DNA of 62,471 nt, taken from Bacillota bacterium. Its GTDB lineage: Bacteria; Bacillota; Desulfitobacteriia; Desulfitobacteriales; JAJXUE01. The translations under genes were made by a program, and so were the position numbers. The first letter of the stretch is position 1. Each line of letters starts with the position of its first letter. The stretch is from the NCBI GenBank assembly GCA_021783135.1, contig JAJXUE010000014.1, forward strand, positions 1 to 62,471, read 5' to 3'. The notes beneath the pieces are model-generated. The model had not been told where the DNA came from, did not search any database, and was given only the letters and a program-made list of their open reading frames with translations. This document shows positions 8,210 through 61,072 of the stretch, piece by piece.

Positions 8210-8218
8210 TCCACAATC

Positions 8219-8248
8219 CGCCGCAATTCGCCGCAATTCGCCGCAATC
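8219..8248. repeat. Three tandem copies of a 10-bp repeat
   Basis: CGCCGCAATT is repeated at 8219-8228 and 8229-8238, with a third copy at 8239-8248 that ends in C, just after the lldH stop codon. No stem-loop or T-run accompanies it. Confidence 0.85.
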
Positions 8249-8362: not shown

Positions 8363-8647
8363 ATGTCTGATGCAGCTTGTGCGGCTGATAGAGCATGTGG
8401 CAGTTGTGGTTCACCCAATTTGCAAGACGAAGTTCCCCTGGGTAAGCTGAGTGTTAATTATTTATCTGGGTTGGTGCTTAAAAGTAAACCAATTCACGGG
8501 TCTGTATGTCTGGATTGCGGCAAAGTGGAATTGCATCTAGACTACCCGAGTGAGCTCAAAGATAGAGAACTAGTACGCAGCGGTAGCGGAAATTTCTTGC
8601 CGTTTATCATTTTCGCATTGTTTATTTTGTCGTTGCAGCTTGATTAG
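8363..8647 (+). CDS. Small zinc-ribbon protein with C-terminal membrane anchor
   Basis: 94 residues from ATG 8363, which has GGGAGGTGG upstream. The N-terminus has CGSCGSP and the middle CLDCGK, together a likely four-Cys zinc ribbon. The last 18 residues are a hydrophobic anchor (FLPFIIFALFILSLQL). The protein probably sits on the cytoplasmic face of the membrane. Function not recognised. It stands immediately upstream of the structured RNA candidate and may be a separate unit: GCAGATG and CATCTGC form a stem just after its stop. Confidence 0.6.
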   Translation: MSDAACAADRACGSCGSPNLQDEVPLGKLSVNYLSGLVLKSKPIHGSVCLDCGKVELHLDYPSELKDRELVRSGSGNFLPFIIFALFILSLQLD

Positions 8648-8754
8648 CAGATGTACGGTAAAAACTCGTGAGCATCTGCCTTGATTCATGAAAAATAGTG
8701 GAAATATGTGGAAGGATATTTGGCACTAGAAAGTGAATTTGATAATGGGTCACA

Positions 8755-9172
8755 GGATTGACACCTCCAACGGTAGGCAATCCTAATTCACCTGAAGGGG
8801 TGAGTTCCCGGCACTAGCTAATTGGACTGATACCAAAGGTACTTGTTTAATGTCTGCTCTGTCATAACCGAGGATAGATAAGAAGAGGTCAGAAGACCTA
8901 AACAGAGCGGTTACAAGACAGGCAGCGCCAAAGTTGAACCAGCAGTCTGAACCTAGTGTTTTACAGGGTGCCCTGGCAGGCTTAGCCAAAGGTCAGGCTA
9001 ATGGAATACTCAGTGATAGTATCCCATGCGCGGAAGTCTGATGCGATGGTGCTTGCCTATTGTAAATAGAGCCGGGTCAAGGGATCACGGCCGAACCGGG
9101 TTAGGAGCTCCACCCGGGCGGTCCCGCGACAGCAACAATTGGTCCTGGGTTTTCCCAGGACGATTTTTTTTG
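8755..9172 (+). ncRNA. Large structured RNA candidate ending in an intrinsic terminator
   Basis: No ORF fits this 418-nt stretch, yet it is dense in helices. GGATTG/CAATCC at 8755-8783. AATTCACC/GGTGAGTT next to it. A long arm CTGCTCTGTCATAACCG (8854-8870) pairs with CGGTTACAAGACAGGCAG (8908-8925), capped by AGGTC/GACCT. TTAGCC/GGCTAA lies near 8980-9001, ATGG-ATACT/AGTAT-CCAT near 9000-9025, and CCGGGT/ACCCGG near 9100. It ends in GTCCTGGG/CCCAGGAC plus eight T. I could not match it to RNase P, tmRNA, SRP RNA, 6S or a riboswitch class. OLE RNA, known in anaerobic Bacillota but longer, is one possibility. The 5' end is approximate. Confidence 0.6.
9142..9172 (+). terminator. Terminator of the structured RNA
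   Basis: GTCCTGGG pairs with CCCAGGAC (loop TTTT) and is followed by GATTTTTTTT. It separates the RNA from the lipoprotein operon, which has its own TATAAT about 60 nt ahead of the first gene, so the RNA may be either independent or an attenuated leader. Confidence 0.9.
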
Positions 9173-9260
9173 TCTAACTTATCCGCGAATATACGTTATA
9201 ATAGATACGTGTAGAATAAGCATTTGTGAGATTTTAACTGCAGTGGAGGAATGAATTGGG

Positions 9261-9875
9261 ATGCGGCATAAGCTTTTGTGGGCAGTCGTGTTGTTGTTAA
9301 CTGTGAGTTTGCTTGGTTGTCAGGCCAGTACCAGATCGCAGCAGACGGTGAAATTCGATAATTATACAGACGTCTTGTTTCCCACCCCCAGTCAGGTGGT
9401 TTTAACCAATCTTCATAAAGGCTTGCCACAAAAAATCTTGTTAAAAAAGGGCGACATAACTTCACTGATGCATACTCTGCATGCGTCAATTGAAACATCA
9501 CTCACAGCGCAGAAATATGTGCCAAGTGCGGGGTTAAACAGTCACCAGCCATTGAGCCTTGAATTGAGCTATTCTGGAGCAAGCGAATTAAAGATTATTA
9601 CCGATAAGTCCCTGCGAAGTTTTAAACCGACCAAGATACTGCTCCTACTGCAACAAAGGATGCTCGTCGTTGAGACGCCAGAAGGCACGAAGGCTTTTAG
9701 CGGACTGAATATTCAAGATCAATTTATCACGTTAATGCAAAATTTCACCGCTGAATCCAGTTTTCCTTTACCTCCAGCCACGCTTGGTGATCAGAATGTG
9801 GAACAGTTGCCTCTAGCCCACCCTGATCAAGTCCAGATTGACTTTTTGCCACCGGCGCAAAACCTGGGCAGGTAA
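9261..9875 (+). CDS. Lipoprotein of unknown function
   Basis: 204 residues with a lipoprotein signal peptide: hydrophobic WAVVLLLTVSLLG and lipobox LLGC with Cys at residue 20. The mature part is soluble, beta-rich and without recognised motifs. First gene of an operon with the TPR protein, the Hsp70-like ATPase and a Cys-rich membrane protein. A TATAAT is present about 60 nt upstream. It may be the extracytoplasmic component of whatever the operon builds. Confidence 0.7.
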   Translation: MRHKLLWAVVLLLTVSLLGCQASTRSQQTVKFDNYTDVLFPTPSQVVLTNLHKGLPQKILLKKGDITSLMHTLHASIETSLTAQKYVPSAGLNSHQPLSLELSYSGASELKIITDKSLRSFKPTKILLLLQQRMLVVETPEGTKAFSGLNIQDQFITLMQNFTAESSFPLPPATLGDQNVEQLPLAHPDQVQIDFLPPAQNLGR

Positions 9876-9936
9876 CTTATAGTTATGCGATATTTGTTGT
9901 ACATGTTTAATTTATTGCAGTATGGAGGAAATCGAT

Positions 9937-11919
9937 TTGGGCAAGAAATCAGCTTCCGGTGGAATATTCAGTTGGCTTTTTAGCGGGAAGAGTCAAACAG
10001 TGGATACTCACCAATCTAATTCCGCAACCGATACTCCACCGCACACTTGGGATGATTTAGTGGATAAAATCACCAGCAAAAAACTGGCGGAAAAAGATAA
10101 ATTGTTAGAGGATGCCTTTCTGACTGATATGAGTATAGAACCAGGTCCCGACTACGCATCCATGCCACCTGAACAGGTAAAATGGCTTCTGCAAGAGGCA
10201 AAACAAGATCTCGCGCTAGGTAATACAACCAAAGCCTACAAGCTTTTGGAAATTGCCCTGAGCCTCGATACGCACCCCGAAGTATTATTTGCTCTAGCTA
10301 AATTAACACTTGCCCAGGGTGATTCGTCCGAAGCTGCGCGTTTATGCTTGCAGTCGCTGCAGCTATTCCCCAATAACGTGCAAGGGTACGAGCTTCTGAC
10401 CCAACTTGATGCCGCAGTTTTGGACACGATGGTGCTAACGCAATTGCGCCCAACCTCGGTGAAGGCAAATACTCAGTTAGCTAGATTATGTATGACCTGC
10501 GGGGCGTATTCTCCAGCCTTGGATTTCTTTATCAGAGCTAGAAGCCTTGGTTTGAACGTTGACGAAGTTGAAGGTGATTTAGGGACGGTGTTCCAGCGCA
10601 TGGGTGCGCCGGAACTGGCTGTGCGCCATTTCCAACGTCATTTGGAGCGCACGGGAAATCTAGCTACTGCATATACGTTGTGCGATATCTATCTGGATTT
10701 AGGTCAATATCAAGCAGCTGCTGAAGTCGGCAAAGCATATTTTGCTGATAACCAGGCAAGTCAGGCCCGTGACCGATGGGCTCAAGTCAATTTCTTATTG
10801 GCGCAACAGTTGGCCCAAAGCGGTAACCAAGCTGATGCCATTAGCGGATTTTATCTAGCACTTGACCTTGGTATTGCCGCAGCCAAAGATAATTTGGCTG
10901 TTTGTTTGCGCAGCGTTGCGGATGAAAATTGGGAAGATAATCCGGCCATGGCGTTGGAAAAGTATGAGGCTTGGTTGGAAATTAGTGGTTTTGATGTGGA
11001 AATAGGCGAACGGGTTGCAGCCGGCTACCTGAAATTAGCGAACTTTGGCAAAGCAATAGAGTATTGGCGTAGGCTGTTAAAGCTCGAACCGGAAAATCAA
11101 GCGTACATGGCTGCCTTGGCGGCAGGTTATCAAGGCTCAGGGGAGTTGATTCGGGCGGCAGATCTCTGGGAGCGACTTATCCAGCTTAACCCAGGCAATA
11201 AAGCCATCCGCGAAGAGTTATTTAATTATTGTCGGACAATAGGTGATTATTCGGCAGCAAGACAACATTTAGCGGAACTATATGAAAAGCAGAGCGAGAA
11301 GTATAAAACTTTAATTCAATCACTCCTACGCGAACAACTACGCCTTTTAGTGGAACATGGTAAGCTAGAGCAGGCTTGGCAGGTGTGTTATAGCGAAATT
11401 AAGGAGAGTCCATCGACTGAACTACAGGCAATTGCAGCAAAAATCTTGTTTGAACGGTTAGATATTTTAGCCCAAACCAAAGAGATTGAGGTTGCGTTGC
11501 GGGACGTAATGCAGGCTAGGCAAATAGGTTTGGATAGTACTGAGTTAAGTATTCGCGAGGCAAGTTTACACGAGCAAAAGGGTAATTACGCAGCTGCATT
11601 GCCAATATATGTAGGCATCGTTCCTAAAACAGCTGAGGTAAGGCATAAAATTAAGGAACTTTATCTAAACGCTGCACGTATCGAATCTGAGGCCGGAGAT
11701 TTGCCCAAGGCCAGGCACCTACTGGAAGAGGTCGATGCGCATTTGCCGCAGGATGAGATGATTAAGCAAGCGCTGGCCTTGGTGTATTATGCGACAGGTC
11801 AATATACTTTAGCCGTGGCGTTATCCCTAAATAGATGCGTAGATGACGAAGACCAACCTGGCACTGATTTTTTAAGTGTGCTACGGCCACGCGGGTACCG
11901 CAGTATCATTTTGGGGTAA
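9937..11919 (+). CDS. Large TPR-repeat protein
   Basis: About 660 residues. The TTG at 9937 has GGAGG eight bases upstream, while the ATG at 9922 overlaps that site and has none, so TTG is chosen. After a short N-terminal stretch with FSWLFSGK, TPR-type helix pairs run to the C-terminus (LGNTTKAYKLLEIALSL; GAYSPALDFFIRARSLG; LGQYQAAAEVGKAYF; LANFGKAIEYWRRLLKLEPENQ; GNYAAALPIYVGIV; ATGQYTLAVALSL). No signal peptide. TPR proteins are scaffolds and frequent Hsp70 co-factors. Only 15 nt separate it from the Hsp70-like gene, which supports a working pair. Confidence 0.8.
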   Translation: MGKKSASGGIFSWLFSGKSQTVDTHQSNSATDTPPHTWDDLVDKITSKKLAEKDKLLEDAFLTDMSIEPGPDYASMPPEQVKWLLQEAKQDLALGNTTKAYKLLEIALSLDTHPEVLFALAKLTLAQGDSSEAARLCLQSLQLFPNNVQGYELLTQLDAAVLDTMVLTQLRPTSVKANTQLARLCMTCGAYSPALDFFIRARSLGLNVDEVEGDLGTVFQRMGAPELAVRHFQRHLERTGNLATAYTLCDIYLDLGQYQAAAEVGKAYFADNQASQARDRWAQVNFLLAQQLAQSGNQADAISGFYLALDLGIAAAKDNLAVCLRSVADENWEDNPAMALEKYEAWLEISGFDVEIGERVAAGYLKLANFGKAIEYWRRLLKLEPENQAYMAALAAGYQGSGELIRAADLWERLIQLNPGNKAIREELFNYCRTIGDYSAARQHLAELYEKQSEKYKTLIQSLLREQLRLLVEHGKLEQAWQVCYSEIKESPSTELQAIAAKILFERLDILAQTKEIEVALRDVMQARQIGLDSTELSIREASLHEQKGNYAAALPIYVGIVPKTAEVRHKIKELYLNAARIESEAGDLPKARHLLEEVDAHLPQDEMIKQALALVYYATGQYTLAVALSLNRCVDDEDQPGTDFLSVLRPRGYRSIILG

Positions 11920-11934
11920 AAGGAGAGTTTGGCT

Positions 11935-13155
11935 ATGTCAGAGGAACGCATTATTGGCATGCAAATAGGAAGCGGTAATTTGGCGTTGGCATCGTACCGC
12001 GTTATTGGACAATTTGCCAGTTCAGAAGTAATTCGACTTAGTGATGGCAGAGGCAACTATCAATTGATGCCGGCATTGTTTTTTTTCGCGCAACCCGGAG
12101 AGTTGGAAATTGGCCGCGCTGCCAAGGGCAAATGGCTCAAACAGCCGGAATTGGTGTATTCACCGCTGCAGTTGTTATCCGGTGGAGTGCAGCAACTGAC
12201 AATTGGTGATTATAACTTAGCGGTGTCTGAACTGATCGGAAATCTGACCGCTGATTTGCGTGAGCAAGCAGGTTTATTTGGTGAATTTACGCACTGTTCT
12301 GTTGCGTATCCGGAGTATTTAAACCAAACTCAATTGCTTGAACTTAAGCAAGGGCTACGCGCGGATCTGCCGGACTTAGCGGAACACAACTTTGTCCCTT
12401 CTGGGGTAGCCGCATTGCTCGACATGCAAATGCATCCGGCTCGCTATAATTTAGGCTATCATAAATTTGACTTTGCCACTAAGCATACATTCCTAGTAGT
12501 GGACGTGGGTGAAAATTTTACGACGACCAGTTTGTTTCATGTGTGCGAAGTGGGGGAGGAACTTCAGGTGCGATATCTGGTTGAGCCTCAGTACATTCAA
12601 CTTGGTGGCAGGGACTTTGATGCCAGTTTTGCTTCGCACGTTATAGAACAGGCCAAAGTTGCCGGAAATATTGTGCCTGGGGAATTGACGCCGGAGCTGC
12701 AGCGGCAAATTCAACTGGATGCCGACAAACTGAAACGTGACTTGGTTGAACGAGTAGATGCTGAGATTATCAGCACCCATGGAGCTTCGGACAGATTGCA
12801 AGATTTGTCTGTTCCCTTACGCATATTGGGTCCAGGCGGCAGGAAACTGGTAGAGCGGGATATAACTAAAGCCGAGTACGATGCTGCAGTGTTTAGCTGC
12901 ATCGCTTCGCGGCATCAGGCTGAAGCCTGCATATTCCAGCCGGTTACACGGGCCCTGAATCTAGCCAGATTAAGTCCGGAAGATGTTGATGAAGTACTGC
13001 TGGTTGGCGGAATGGCGCGGTTACATTGTTTGGGCGAGGTATTTAAACAAGCGTTCTGTCTAGTGCCACGTGAGTTTAGGAGTCCCGAACTTGCGGCTGC
13101 CCGTGGGGCTTCAATTTATCAAGATATGATAACAAATGCGCTCGCAACTGGTTGA
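11935..13155 (+). CDS. Hsp70/DnaK-like ATPase lacking the substrate-binding domain
   Basis: About 406 residues of actin-like ATPase fold only. The second phosphate loop is FLVVDVGENFTTTSLF and the adenosine motif VDEVLLVGGMARLHCL; FVPSGVAALLD matches the DnaK PxAAxLA-type motif. The first phosphate loop is weak (IIGMQIGSGNLALA in place of IGIDLGTT). DnaK is about 610 residues; this ends after the nucleotide-binding domain, so it cannot clamp peptide like DnaK. Start ATG 11935 follows AGGAG; TTG 11929 is an alternative. Probably works with the adjacent TPR protein. Client and pathway unknown. Confidence 0.75.
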   Translation: MSEERIIGMQIGSGNLALASYRVIGQFASSEVIRLSDGRGNYQLMPALFFFAQPGELEIGRAAKGKWLKQPELVYSPLQLLSGGVQQLTIGDYNLAVSELIGNLTADLREQAGLFGEFTHCSVAYPEYLNQTQLLELKQGLRADLPDLAEHNFVPSGVAALLDMQMHPARYNLGYHKFDFATKHTFLVVDVGENFTTTSLFHVCEVGEELQVRYLVEPQYIQLGGRDFDASFASHVIEQAKVAGNIVPGELTPELQRQIQLDADKLKRDLVERVDAEIISTHGASDRLQDLSVPLRILGPGGRKLVERDITKAEYDAAVFSCIASRHQAEACIFQPVTRALNLARLSPEDVDEVLLVGGMARLHCLGEVFKQAFCLVPREFRSPELAAARGASIYQDMITNALATG

Positions 13156-13680: not shown

Positions 13681-15930
13681 TTATAATTCTATCGCAGCCT
13701 CGTCGCGGTCAAGTTTACGCATACATTCTTTGAACCTAGCGCGTAGATAGTTGTCGGTTGTGGCTTCGCGCATTTGACGCAACAAGTCAATGGTACGGCG
13801 CAAGACGCTGATGATATCTCCTTCATCTAAATTGCACAGCTTCTGAACTTCGCCAAAACTAGCTCCTTGACTCCACGCGTGTACAAGCGGGGCTACCCTG
13901 TGGTCAAAGCGGCAGGTACCCTCGCCACAGAGGCGGTCCAGGTACTTAATTATGGCCACTATTGCAGTCATGTCCAGCACGGTAATCCGCGTAAAGTAAT
14001 CATTCTTACGCGCCTCAAAATCGACGCAGGCGAGTAAGGCGTTGAGCTGGTCATCATCTAGTTGGCTAAAGCACTCACTAAACATTAACTCGGTAACCAA
14101 TAGCTCCTGCACATAAATTTTACTGGCGCATTTGCCGCGTGCTAATAACTCTCGGTCTCGCAGGTAACCCAACTGAGTCAGGTTTTCACGCTTGCGATAG
14201 TAATCTTGCAGGAAAACATCTTGAGCAGGAATTGCAGCGAGCCGTTTATGCAACACTGCGGCCAAGGTTTCTAACTGGGTATATGGTTTGTAGCTTTGTT
14301 GACACTGATTTACTTCGTGAGGCGCACAAGCTTTGGGCTCTTGGGTTAAATACCGTTCAAGTTGGCGGATCTTTTTAAACATCTGTCGGCCATAAGTTTT
14401 TTGTTGTCTTTTATGGCCCAAAATATAATATGCCTTTTTTAACCGTGCCAGTTCCTTGGATTTGGGTCCAAACTTGAGCGGACAACGGTAAGAGTTGAAG
14501 TCAGTACACACATGTTGTTTAAGTGAGTTCAGTTTTGTTTCAACGTCAGCCAGTTCCGCTCTCACGCTGCTAAACGTTTCGTTATCGACAAAAGAGGCAA
14601 AGCTCTGTTGAAAATAAGTTGCAATTTGAGCGTCTGTCAGCGTTTGCGCTAAATTTAGGACGGTATTATAGGAAAGTTTAAATTGGCTGCTCAACGGTTC
14701 AAGTTTTTTGATGTCGAAAACGGGTGGTGGACTTTTCTCCATGTAATTAAGATCCACTAGTGCGAAAGAGAAGCCTTTGGCATCAATACCCCGCCTTCCG
14801 GCTCTTCCCGACATTTGAAAAAACTCATGGTTAGCCAAAGAACGAAAATTCCTACCGTCAAATTTCTCCATAGAGTCGAAACAAACTGATTTGACTGGAT
14901 AATTGATTCCGACACTAAAGGTTTCGGTGCAGTATAGCACATGGATGAGACGCAAGGCAAAAAGTTCTTCCACTAAATTCTTTTGACTTGGCAACAGTCC
15001 GGCATGATGGAACGCTATGCCTCTGATGCAAAGACGTCGCAACAGTCGCGTCGAAGCTGTCCAAGCTTCCTCCGGACCGAAAGTCTTGATAAAATGCTGT
15101 TCAACCAGGCGTTTTTCCCTTTGGTGGAGAAAATTTCCAACCACCGCAAGTTCTTTGGCCTTCAGCGCGCATTGCTTGCGGCTGAAGACAAAGTACAGCG
15201 TGGGCAGGTAGTGGGTTTTAATGGCAGATATCAAGTCGAGATGACTGGGGGTAGCAAAAAAACGTTCACCGCGTTCCGGTTTGGTTTCCGGCGCATGCGT
15301 ACGGTAAAAGTCCCATAAGCTGTTTAAATCGGTAATACCGGTTTCTTGGCTAAAAAAGAAGTAGTCGAGCGGTACCGCACGGCGCTGTTCTTCGACCAGA
15401 ATGACATCTTCACTCCGTACCGTACTCATCCATTTGACTAATTGTGATGCATTGGCGATGGTGGCACTTAAACCTAAAATTTTAATCCCGGGTGGAGCTA
15501 AAATGATTGACTCTTCCCATACCGTACCCCGGTCTTCATCATTTAACCAGTGAATTTCGTCTAAAATGATGTAAGTAATATTAGCCAGGCCAGGATCTTC
15601 CGTAATAACCTGATTGCGGAAGATTTCCGTGGTCATAATTAAAACGGGCGCATCCGGATTGATAACGATGTCTCCCGTCATTATGCCGACGACATCTTCC
15701 CCAAAAGCACTTTTAAAATCCTTAAACTTTTGATTGCTCAAAGCTTTAATTGGAGCGGTATAAATGATTCTTTGCTTTTCCTTTATTGCCTTTTCTACCA
15801 AAAAGTCGGCTACCAAAGTCTTACCGGTTCCGGTTGGTGCGGAAACTACTACAGATTTTCCGGCTTCGAGGGCCTCAATGGCAGTTTGTTGAAATGGATC
15901 AAGGATTAGTCCGTTATAGCTTGTCGGCAC
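13681..15930 (-). CDS. Ski2/Mtr4-type superfamily II helicase
   Basis: About 749 residues. All core helicase motifs are visible: SAPTGTGKTLVADF (I), DEIHWLND (II, DExH), LGLSATIAN (III), FHHAGLLPSQK (IV/V region) and QMSGRAGRRGID (VI). The QMSGRAGRRG form and the long helical C-terminus match Ski2-like RNA helicases, so a role in RNA unwinding or turnover is likely. The GTG at 15930 has AGGAAGGTGA close upstream; the ATG at 15960 has no Shine-Dalgarno. Stands alone between a terminator and a divergent gene. Confidence 0.85.
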   Translation of the reverse strand: MPTSYNGLILDPFQQTAIEALEAGKSVVVSAPTGTGKTLVADFLVEKAIKEKQRIIYTAPIKALSNQKFKDFKSAFGEDVVGIMTGDIVINPDAPVLIMTTEIFRNQVITEDPGLANITYIILDEIHWLNDEDRGTVWEESIILAPPGIKILGLSATIANASQLVKWMSTVRSEDVILVEEQRRAVPLDYFFFSQETGITDLNSLWDFYRTHAPETKPERGERFFATPSHLDLISAIKTHYLPTLYFVFSRKQCALKAKELAVVGNFLHQREKRLVEQHFIKTFGPEEAWTASTRLLRRLCIRGIAFHHAGLLPSQKNLVEELFALRLIHVLYCTETFSVGINYPVKSVCFDSMEKFDGRNFRSLANHEFFQMSGRAGRRGIDAKGFSFALVDLNYMEKSPPPVFDIKKLEPLSSQFKLSYNTVLNLAQTLTDAQIATYFQQSFASFVDNETFSSVRAELADVETKLNSLKQHVCTDFNSYRCPLKFGPKSKELARLKKAYYILGHKRQQKTYGRQMFKKIRQLERYLTQEPKACAPHEVNQCQQSYKPYTQLETLAAVLHKRLAAIPAQDVFLQDYYRKRENLTQLGYLRDRELLARGKCASKIYVQELLVTELMFSECFSQLDDDQLNALLACVDFEARKNDYFTRITVLDMTAIVAIIKYLDRLCGEGTCRFDHRVAPLVHAWSQGASFGEVQKLCNLDEGDIISVLRRTIDLLRQMREATTDNYLRARFKECMRKLDRDEAAIEL

Positions 15931-16122
15931 GTTGTTCACCTTCCTGCGGTCATTAGGCAAATTATGGTTTTAATCCACTGCAGCTAATTCTAGCAAACTT
16001 GACTGGCGTGGTCAAATTTAGCTCACAACAAATTTGCTGGCATGATTGAGTTTGAACTTTTATATACTTACATATAAGGGACAAGTAGGGGGGGTGGTCC
16101 TCTGTTTACCTGCCGTAAGGAA

Positions 16123-20808: not shown

Positions 20809-20830
20809 AAATATTGTTAAATTTTATGAT

Positions 20831-20930
20831 TAGGCGATGGGGCTCGCCTTAACTAAGCTTGGTTAGAACCACCCTAGGGTTAATAGCTCCTACTGGTAGG
20901 CAATCCTATCCAGTAGGAGTTTGTTTTTTT
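20831..20930 (+). ncRNA. Fluoride riboswitch (crcB motif) with terminator
   Basis: The aptamer has the conserved GGCGATGG...CTCGCC stem and the downstream TTAATAGCTCCTAC strand. The 3' strand CTCCTACTGG (20887-20896) alternatively pairs with CCAGTAGGAG (20910-20919) followed by TTTGTTTTTTT, a terminator. Fluoride binding would therefore allow readthrough into crcB 50 nt downstream. Gene context and sequence agree. Confidence 0.92.
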
Positions 20931-20980: not shown

Positions 20981-21352
20981 ATGACTTATTTGTTTATTGC
21001 TGTCGGCGGCATGCTGGGAGCCTTGGCCCGTTTTGGTCTAGGCACCTGGATCGGGCAAAGATGGAACAATGCTTATCCGCTCGGAACATTTTTGATTAAT
21101 ATCACCGGAGCTTTTGTGCTGGGATTTATTAACGTCTATTTTTTGGAACGAACAGTTGTTAGTCCGGCCTTGAGGCTAGGAATCGGTGTGGGGTTTCTTG
21201 GAGCGTACACAACGTTTTCTACCTTCACCTATGAAGCGATGCGGCTGATTGAGGACGGAAGTTATATGTTGGCTTTGGGATATGTCAGTGCCAGCGCGGT
21301 AATAGGGCTGATAGCTGTCTATTTAGGCATGACTTTAGGTCGTAATTTGTAG
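20981..21352 (+). CDS. crcB: Fluoride channel CrcB/Fluc
   Basis: 123 residues, four hydrophobic helices. Family motifs present: GGMLGALARFGLG, the GTFLINITGAFVLGF helix with Asn, and GFLGAYTTFSTFTYE. Fluc channels are dual-topology dimers that let F- leave the cell; only one copy is present, which fits a homodimer. It sits directly behind a fluoride riboswitch. AAAGGAGA precedes the ATG. It is followed by a DUF190 gene, a common partner. Confidence 0.95.
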   Translation: MTYLFIAVGGMLGALARFGLGTWIGQRWNNAYPLGTFLINITGAFVLGFINVYFLERTVVSPALRLGIGVGFLGAYTTFSTFTYEAMRLIEDGSYMLALGYVSASAVIGLIAVYLGMTLGRNL

Positions 21353-42299: not shown

Positions 42300-42422
42300 A
42301 AGCACCATGCGCACACTCCTCTTATCATCCAGACTCTGACTGTCGGTTCCGGAATTACACCGGATCAGCGTATTCGCTCGCGGACTTTACCGCCGGTACG
42401 GAATTTCACCGCTCCCCAGAGG
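42300..42422 (-). ncRNA. FMN riboswitch (RFN element)
   Basis: Reading the minus strand, the conserved blocks occur in order: GGGGAGCGGTGAAATTCCGT, ACCGGCGGTAAAGTCCGCGA, CTGATCCGGTG-AATTCCGG, ACCGACAGTC and AGTCTGGATG. FMN binding would favour the downstream terminator and shut off ribDE(BA)H. Confidence 0.96.
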
Positions 42423-42495
42423 AATAATATTAAACTCAGAATTAATTCTACTGGAAAACTATTGACTTGACAAGAACTAAGGAAAATATAATTGT

Positions 42496-47580: not shown

Positions 47581-47655
47581 AAAGCTAAATTGCCATGGTC
47601 ACCACATGTGTTTTGTGCTATTCTTAACTAAGTATTATTATAGTAAGTTTTGTTT

Positions 47656-47718
47656 GTGCGGGGTGCGGGGTGCGATGTGCGGGGTGCGATGTGCGGGGTG
47701 CGATGTGGGATGTGCGAA
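47656..47718. repeat. Heptanucleotide tandem repeat, nine units
   Basis: GTGCGGG, GTGCGAT and variants repeat nine times in exact seven-base register (GGG, GGG, GAT, GGG, GAT, GGG, GAT, GTGGGAT, GTGCGAA endings). It lies 28 nt before the flavodiiron gene and just ahead of its Shine-Dalgarno, in otherwise AT-rich sequence. Confidence 0.92.
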
Positions 47719-60877: not shown

Positions 60878-60896
60878 AAATTAGATAGTTTAATAG

Positions 60897-61050
60897 TTCC
60901 TGTTAGGTGAGGCTTCTGCATGGAGCATACGCTACTGCCCAGAAATGTCGAGAGACGCCAATGGGTCAACAGGTATTACCGAATTAAGGTTTTACCTAAC
61001 GTAGCTGAGTGTAAACTCTAGCCATGTATGTGCCAAAGCTCAATGAGGGG
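60897..61050 (+). ncRNA. M-box magnesium riboswitch (ykoK leader)
   Basis: Conserved blocks in order: GTTAGGTGAGGCT, CATACGCTACTGCCCAGAAA, GTCGAGAGACGCCAATGGGT, CAACAG, TTTACCTAAC, and GTGCCAAAGCTC. High Mg2+ stabilises the aptamer and permits the downstream terminator. It precedes an mgtE-type transporter, the usual target. Confidence 0.95.
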
Positions 61051-61072
61051 AAGGTTTTTTTGGTGTGTTGAT

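Follow-up and report, generated by a model that had tools for sequence, protein, structure and literature searches.

A candidate gene for a large structured RNA restricted to one lineage of Bacillota

The segment at 8746-9172 of the 62,471-nt stretch of DNA that we analysed (the window), from an uncultured, anaerobic member of the Bacillota, is best explained as an independent gene for a structured RNA, from a family that is undescribed and restricted to one lineage, with a sigma-H-type promoter of its own and a product that would act as RNA, most likely as the core of an RNP; we give this reading a probability of about 0.6. A preliminary description had proposed a large structured RNA outside the known families, and the lack of a credible Rfam match, together with relatives conserved in synteny, supports that proposal. 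If transcription and covariation are confirmed, the RNA would represent a new family. The features of the locus are collected in Table 1. The sisters referred to throughout are two genomes (G001 and G002) of a sister genus, and the family of the window's organism comprises three genomes in the set searched.

Table 1. Features of the candidate RNA gene and of its neighbours in the window
Feature	Position	Strand	Description
ZnR	8363..8647	+	94 aa; two CxxC pairs (zinc-ribbon-like); C-terminal hydrophobic tail
Sigma-H-type promoter (putative)	8711..8740	+	GAAGGATAT-N12-AGTGAATTT; consensus match
RNA gene (candidate)	8746..9172	+	Start placed from the promoter; end at the T-run of the terminator
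P1 element	8752..8791	+	GGATTG...CAATCCTA; common to the sister RNAs; helix in the predicted fold 8754-8784
P2 hairpin (predicted)	8785..8806	+	AATTCACC-TGAA-GGGGTGAGTT; pair probability 0.95
Central domain (predicted)	8807..9076	+	Closed by P3, CCCGGCACTA/TAGAGCCGGG (8807-8816/9067-9076); contains P4, P5 and P6
P4 (predicted)	8821-8851	+	Inside the central domain
P5 (predicted)	8854-8910	+	Inside the central domain
P6 (predicted)	8911-9065	+	Caps a junction of four hairpins
3' domain P11 (predicted)	9082..9132	+	Hairpin CCGGGTTAGGAGCTCCACCCGG, then GCGACAG
Intrinsic terminator	9142..9169	+	GTCCTGGG-TTTT-CCCAGGAC plus T8; hairpin 9142-9161, T8 shortly after
Lipoprotein	9261..9875	+	Lipobox LLGC; first gene 3' of the RNA; 36-38% identity in the sisters
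TPR-repeat protein	9922..11919	+	Second gene downstream
Hsp70-like ATPase-domain protein	11929..13155	+	Only in three genomes of the window's family

The stretch at 8755-9172 had been described as free of open reading frames. This holds: the ORF list contains none of at least 80 aa on either strand, stops occur in all six frames and no open stretch exceeds 69 codons. The promoter suggests that the RNA starts at about 8746-8752 rather than at the 8755 given before. Sigma-H boxes are spaced by 11-12 nt, and we presume from Bacillota in general that the organism has this factor. The element at 8711 is the sole full match in the 62 kb window to RNAGGAWWW-N11/12-RNNGAATWW, and the shorter sigma-H form without the WW has a chance expectation of 0.18 per window. 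The boxes are those of the published sigma-H consensus, RNAGGAWWW and RNNGAATWW (PMC8510167). Both sisters have a counterpart at the same place with one mismatch, in the last base of the -10 box, and all three genomes carry the element TGGAAGGA-(T)ATTT...TGAA-TT-ATAA upstream of P1. From these matches we infer that the RNA may be under sigma-H control. A weaker sigma-A-like pair, TTGGCA (8720) and GATAAT (8741), with a short spacer of 15 nt, overlaps the sigma-H-type element and might also be used.

The three genomes in which these proteins were found all keep the order ZnR, RNA, lipoprotein, TPR protein, Hsp70-like protein. ZnR, for which we found no Pfam or NCBIfam match, is 55% identical to the sister proteins; in a sample of 399 genomes of the phylum it was present in two members of the window's family and absent from the other 397. 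The Hsp70-like protein occurred in exactly three of the 83 genomes of the class, all of the window's family. Among the GTDB r220 contigs it was found in two genomes, the sister MAGs SKS1.bin126 and DBS2-4.bin25, and searches of wider genome sets with ZnR and the Hsp70-like protein as baits returned only these same two. In the sister genus the TPR protein (L015:5227-7818) has a poorly conserved N-terminal extension of about 200 residues relative to the window copy. A superfamily 2 helicase (13681-15960, reverse strand) with a DSHCT domain, the domain of Ski2/Mtr4-type RNA helicases, is encoded in convergent orientation to the Hsp70-like operon, an arrangement with synteny in G001. Two repeat arrays were also seen in the window: a CAATCCGCCG-like decamer repeated three and a half times in tandem, located between a LUD-domain gene and ZnR (8214-8248), and 7- and 14-nt tandem repeats (GTGCGGGGTGCGAT) at 47655-47717.

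Relatives of the RNA were present at the same place in both sisters, where the spacer is about 860 nt long and holds a stretch of about 660 nt that ends in a terminator. The two sister RNAs are about 77% identical over 691 nt (BLAST), and their conservation (0.70-0.88 per 100 nt) is near that of the flanking coding genes. They have stops in all six frames, and the gaps between them, of 1, 2 and 5 nt, are frame-breaking rather than multiples of three. Comparison with the window RNA gave no BLAST similarity and a marginal whole-length local alignment (z 2-3); a three-way alignment of the core was unreliable and was left out of the pair counting. In P1, ACAGGATTGACAC...CGGTAGGCAATCCTAATTCAC of the window stands against ACTGGATTGGCAC...CGGTGTTCAATCCTAGTTTAC of the sisters, whose loop is about 60 nt longer. 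A covariance model of P1 built from the sisters alone had its best match in the 62 kb at 8752-8791, with an E-value of about 0.001 (next match 0.14); these values are rough, the calibration having been brief. The insert had been removed from the model by hand, and the test was not blind, as P1 was picked after the resemblance had been noticed. The corresponding model of the terminal (3') domain matched the window only at 9114-9179 (E 0.0017), mostly in the terminator. The GCGACAG that precedes the terminator is also present in G002. Because the place, P1 and the ends are shared, the window RNA is likely to be homologous to the sister RNAs, with a central part that would have been rebuilt between the genera.

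Beyond the family, BLAST returned no real relatives, either with the RNA against the class (83 genomes) or with the sister RNA against the phylum (399 genomes). Two weak BLAST matches were located in apparent protein-coding sequence. The P1 model gave weak matches outside the family in the class, most of those examined lying in long open frames and one being an apparent short coding gene, and the terminal-domain model gave three at E 0.04-0.1, which is not significant across 83 genomes.

Folded alone, the window RNA is predicted to form nested helices, for which the mean pair probabilities are 0.7-0.97, in line with the many nested complementary arms reported previously. The arm of about 17 pairs singled out in that report is probably the P6 helix, a long interrupted helix (8911-8930/9047-9065) that has about 16 pairs and caps a multi-hairpin junction. 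The central domain (P3-P6) is predicted from the window sequence only, without covariation. The folding energy was more stable than in dinucleotide shuffles both with the terminator (z -3.7) and without it (z -2.9). Energy alone is nevertheless weak evidence, because two of seven control stretches reached z values of about -4, at least one of them inside a coding gene (CheA-like). Better evidence comes from the two sister genomes, in which the stretch is conserved in the same position.

The sister RNAs taken singly had unexceptional energies (z -0.8 and -1.6 versus dinucleotide shuffles). Their consensus fold reached -178 versus -138 (sd 8) in column-shuffled alignments, and a similar second comparison gave a z of -4.7; alignment shuffles do not preserve dinucleotides, so that these z-scores are upper estimates. 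The fold of G002 was broken in G001 less than in shuffles (31 versus 44); the fold of G001 alone was kept no better than chance. Compensatory changes between the sisters numbered 6 versus 5.9 in shuffles, a comparison of two close sequences with little power. In the window RNA, the P11 hairpin (9096-9117) ends in the palindrome GGAGCTCC, which was not seen in the sisters. Since OLE dimers use palindromic loops (PMC12286853), a dimer contact through this palindrome is conceivable by analogy.

The same locus could instead encode a cis-acting leader, of very great length, for the lipoprotein-TPR-Hsp70-like operon; its fold would then respond to some signal, and the terminator would serve as an attenuator with occasional read-through. 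We hold this main rival to be possible but doubtful. RNA and operon lie on the same strand and always co-occur, and in all three genomes the terminator ends only about 90-105 nt upstream of the lipoprotein start, as in attenuated leaders; however, a length of 420-660 nt far exceeds that of most known single leaders. The stretch does end in a canonical terminator, as first described, with a hairpin and T8, but this hairpin belongs to the most stable predicted fold, and neither of its arms had an upstream complement beyond shuffles or chance in any of the three genomes. That search covered pairing complements only, with pseudoknots and ligand effects outside its scope. Moreover, between the terminator and the lipoprotein gene the window has an A/T-rich stretch that includes a TATAAT box, so the downstream operon may have a promoter of its own. 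We prefer an RNA gene over a leader because of its own promoter-like element, its own terminator, the lack of antiterminator pairing and the unusual length. The promoter element also bears on a further possibility, that the RNA is a structured 3' untranslated region of ZnR rather than a separate gene: the three genomes all have the end of ZnR about 100 nt before the RNA, on the same strand, but the element is conserved between ZnR and P1, and we regard this explanation as very improbable.

Two other explanations dispute either that the stretch acts as RNA or that its family is new. It may be what is left of a mobile element or intron, or a regulatory sequence at the DNA level, that folds by chance; the controls with equally stable folds, the shuffle-like number of compensatory changes and the strong length difference between the two genera would all fit. 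We nonetheless consider this quite unlikely, as the sister copies are conserved like coding DNA over about 660 nt, both ends, the promoter and the terminator are kept across genera, the stretch is single copy, collections of phage, plasmid and viral sequences gave no match to it and no Rfam intron family matches. Strongly disfavoured is the view that the RNA belongs, in much diverged form, to one of the large families already known, such as OLE or RNase P; in its favour are the size and setting, and an assembly (G000, that of the window) without a recognisable RNase P RNA. None of 4227 Rfam models matched the RNA stretch at curated thresholds, and permissive filters with E up to 10 gave no credible match in 8640-9260 or in the sister loci, the one window match (bxd_1, E 7.3) being attributable to chance. 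ARAGORN found no tmRNA. The Rfam check proposed in the preliminary description thus returned no significant match to an ordinary family, and its judgement that the RNA fails the signatures of RNase P, tmRNA, SRP RNA, 6S RNA and the common riboswitches agrees with these searches, in which introns were likewise unmatched. Its nearest idea, OLE (RF01071), is refuted: with E up to 10 that model matched neither 8640-9260 nor the sister loci, whilst a separate, canonical OLE RNA lies elsewhere in the same genome (G000:C44:1522-2135, 520 bits). OLE is also found in both sister genomes, the match in G001 being partial.

As for RNase P, RF00010 and RF00011 matched neither the window RNA nor any other part of the G000 assembly. 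The sisters carry an ordinary-looking RNase P RNA beside a nif3-like gene, in addition to the RNA under study. From its sequence we would take this RNA to be of type A; its score with the type-B model stays under the cut-off. Since nif3, the neighbour of rnpB in the sisters, is missing from G000 too, the missing RNase P RNA is probably an assembly gap. The searches also recorded two OLE matches in another genome of the class (G044, contigs C349 and C486). Elsewhere in the window, Rfam strongly matched an FMN riboswitch (42313-42427, reverse strand) and an M-box magnesium riboswitch (60892-61057, forward strand), and a fluoride riboswitch (20824-20899, forward strand) lies just upstream of a CrcB/Fluc-like ORF (20981-21352).

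As a stand-alone gene, the RNA would be transcribed from its own sigma-H-type promoter, probably therefore as cells enter stationary phase or begin to sporulate, and the transcript would end at the intrinsic terminator. It would then act in trans, as RNA, most likely as the folded core of an RNP, either scaffold or catalyst, bound by at least one of the neighbouring lineage-restricted proteins. Candidate partners are the membrane-tailed zinc-ribbon protein, the lipoprotein, the TPR protein and the Hsp70-like ATPase. They are named by guess, from co-conservation and gene order alone, and no neighbouring protein has known RNA binding; the notion of a membrane RNP is borrowed from OLE.

A bolder version, which we put forward tentatively and think rather unlikely as a whole, would make this a new class of large RNA, driven by sigma-H at the onset of sporulation, that shares its cells with OLE, forms a membrane-linked RNP with the lipoprotein, the TPR protein, the Hsp70-like ATPase and a tail-anchored zinc-ribbon protein, and differs in size by more than half from one genus to the other. 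Few bacterial RNAs this large are without both a function and a family. If the proposal is true, one genome would hold a second large RNA beside OLE, with lineage-restricted proteins of its own and a sporulation-type promoter, in a system compact enough that gene order might tell which proteins partner a large orphan RNA. Its narrow distribution is also a reason why comparative searches, dependent as they are on many relatives, would miss such an RNA.

Among known systems, the type A RNase P RNA is similarly a stand-alone, folded RNA of about 400 nt; the candidate differs in having no match to a model and in standing beside a separate RNase P RNA in the sister genomes. GOLLD and ROOL are large ornate RNAs of unknown function (PMC12286853), and the candidate is likewise large and of unknown function; they are mostly encoded by phages or prophages, whereas the candidate has no Rfam or phage match. 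The raiA motif, or ModT RNA, likewise stands alone as a structured RNA in Bacillota (PMC11706538); from it the candidate departs in having no Rfam match, in not lying beside raiA, in being larger and in being narrowly distributed. OLE is a large (about 600 nt) structured RNA of anaerobic Bacillota, and here too there are differences, as the candidate's neighbours are proteins other than the OLE partners OapA, OapB and OapC and the candidate is confined to one family of organisms. However, OLE works in an RNP with membrane proteins (PMC11332333), and the neighbours of the candidate RNA likewise include proteins that are, by their sequences, membrane-anchored.
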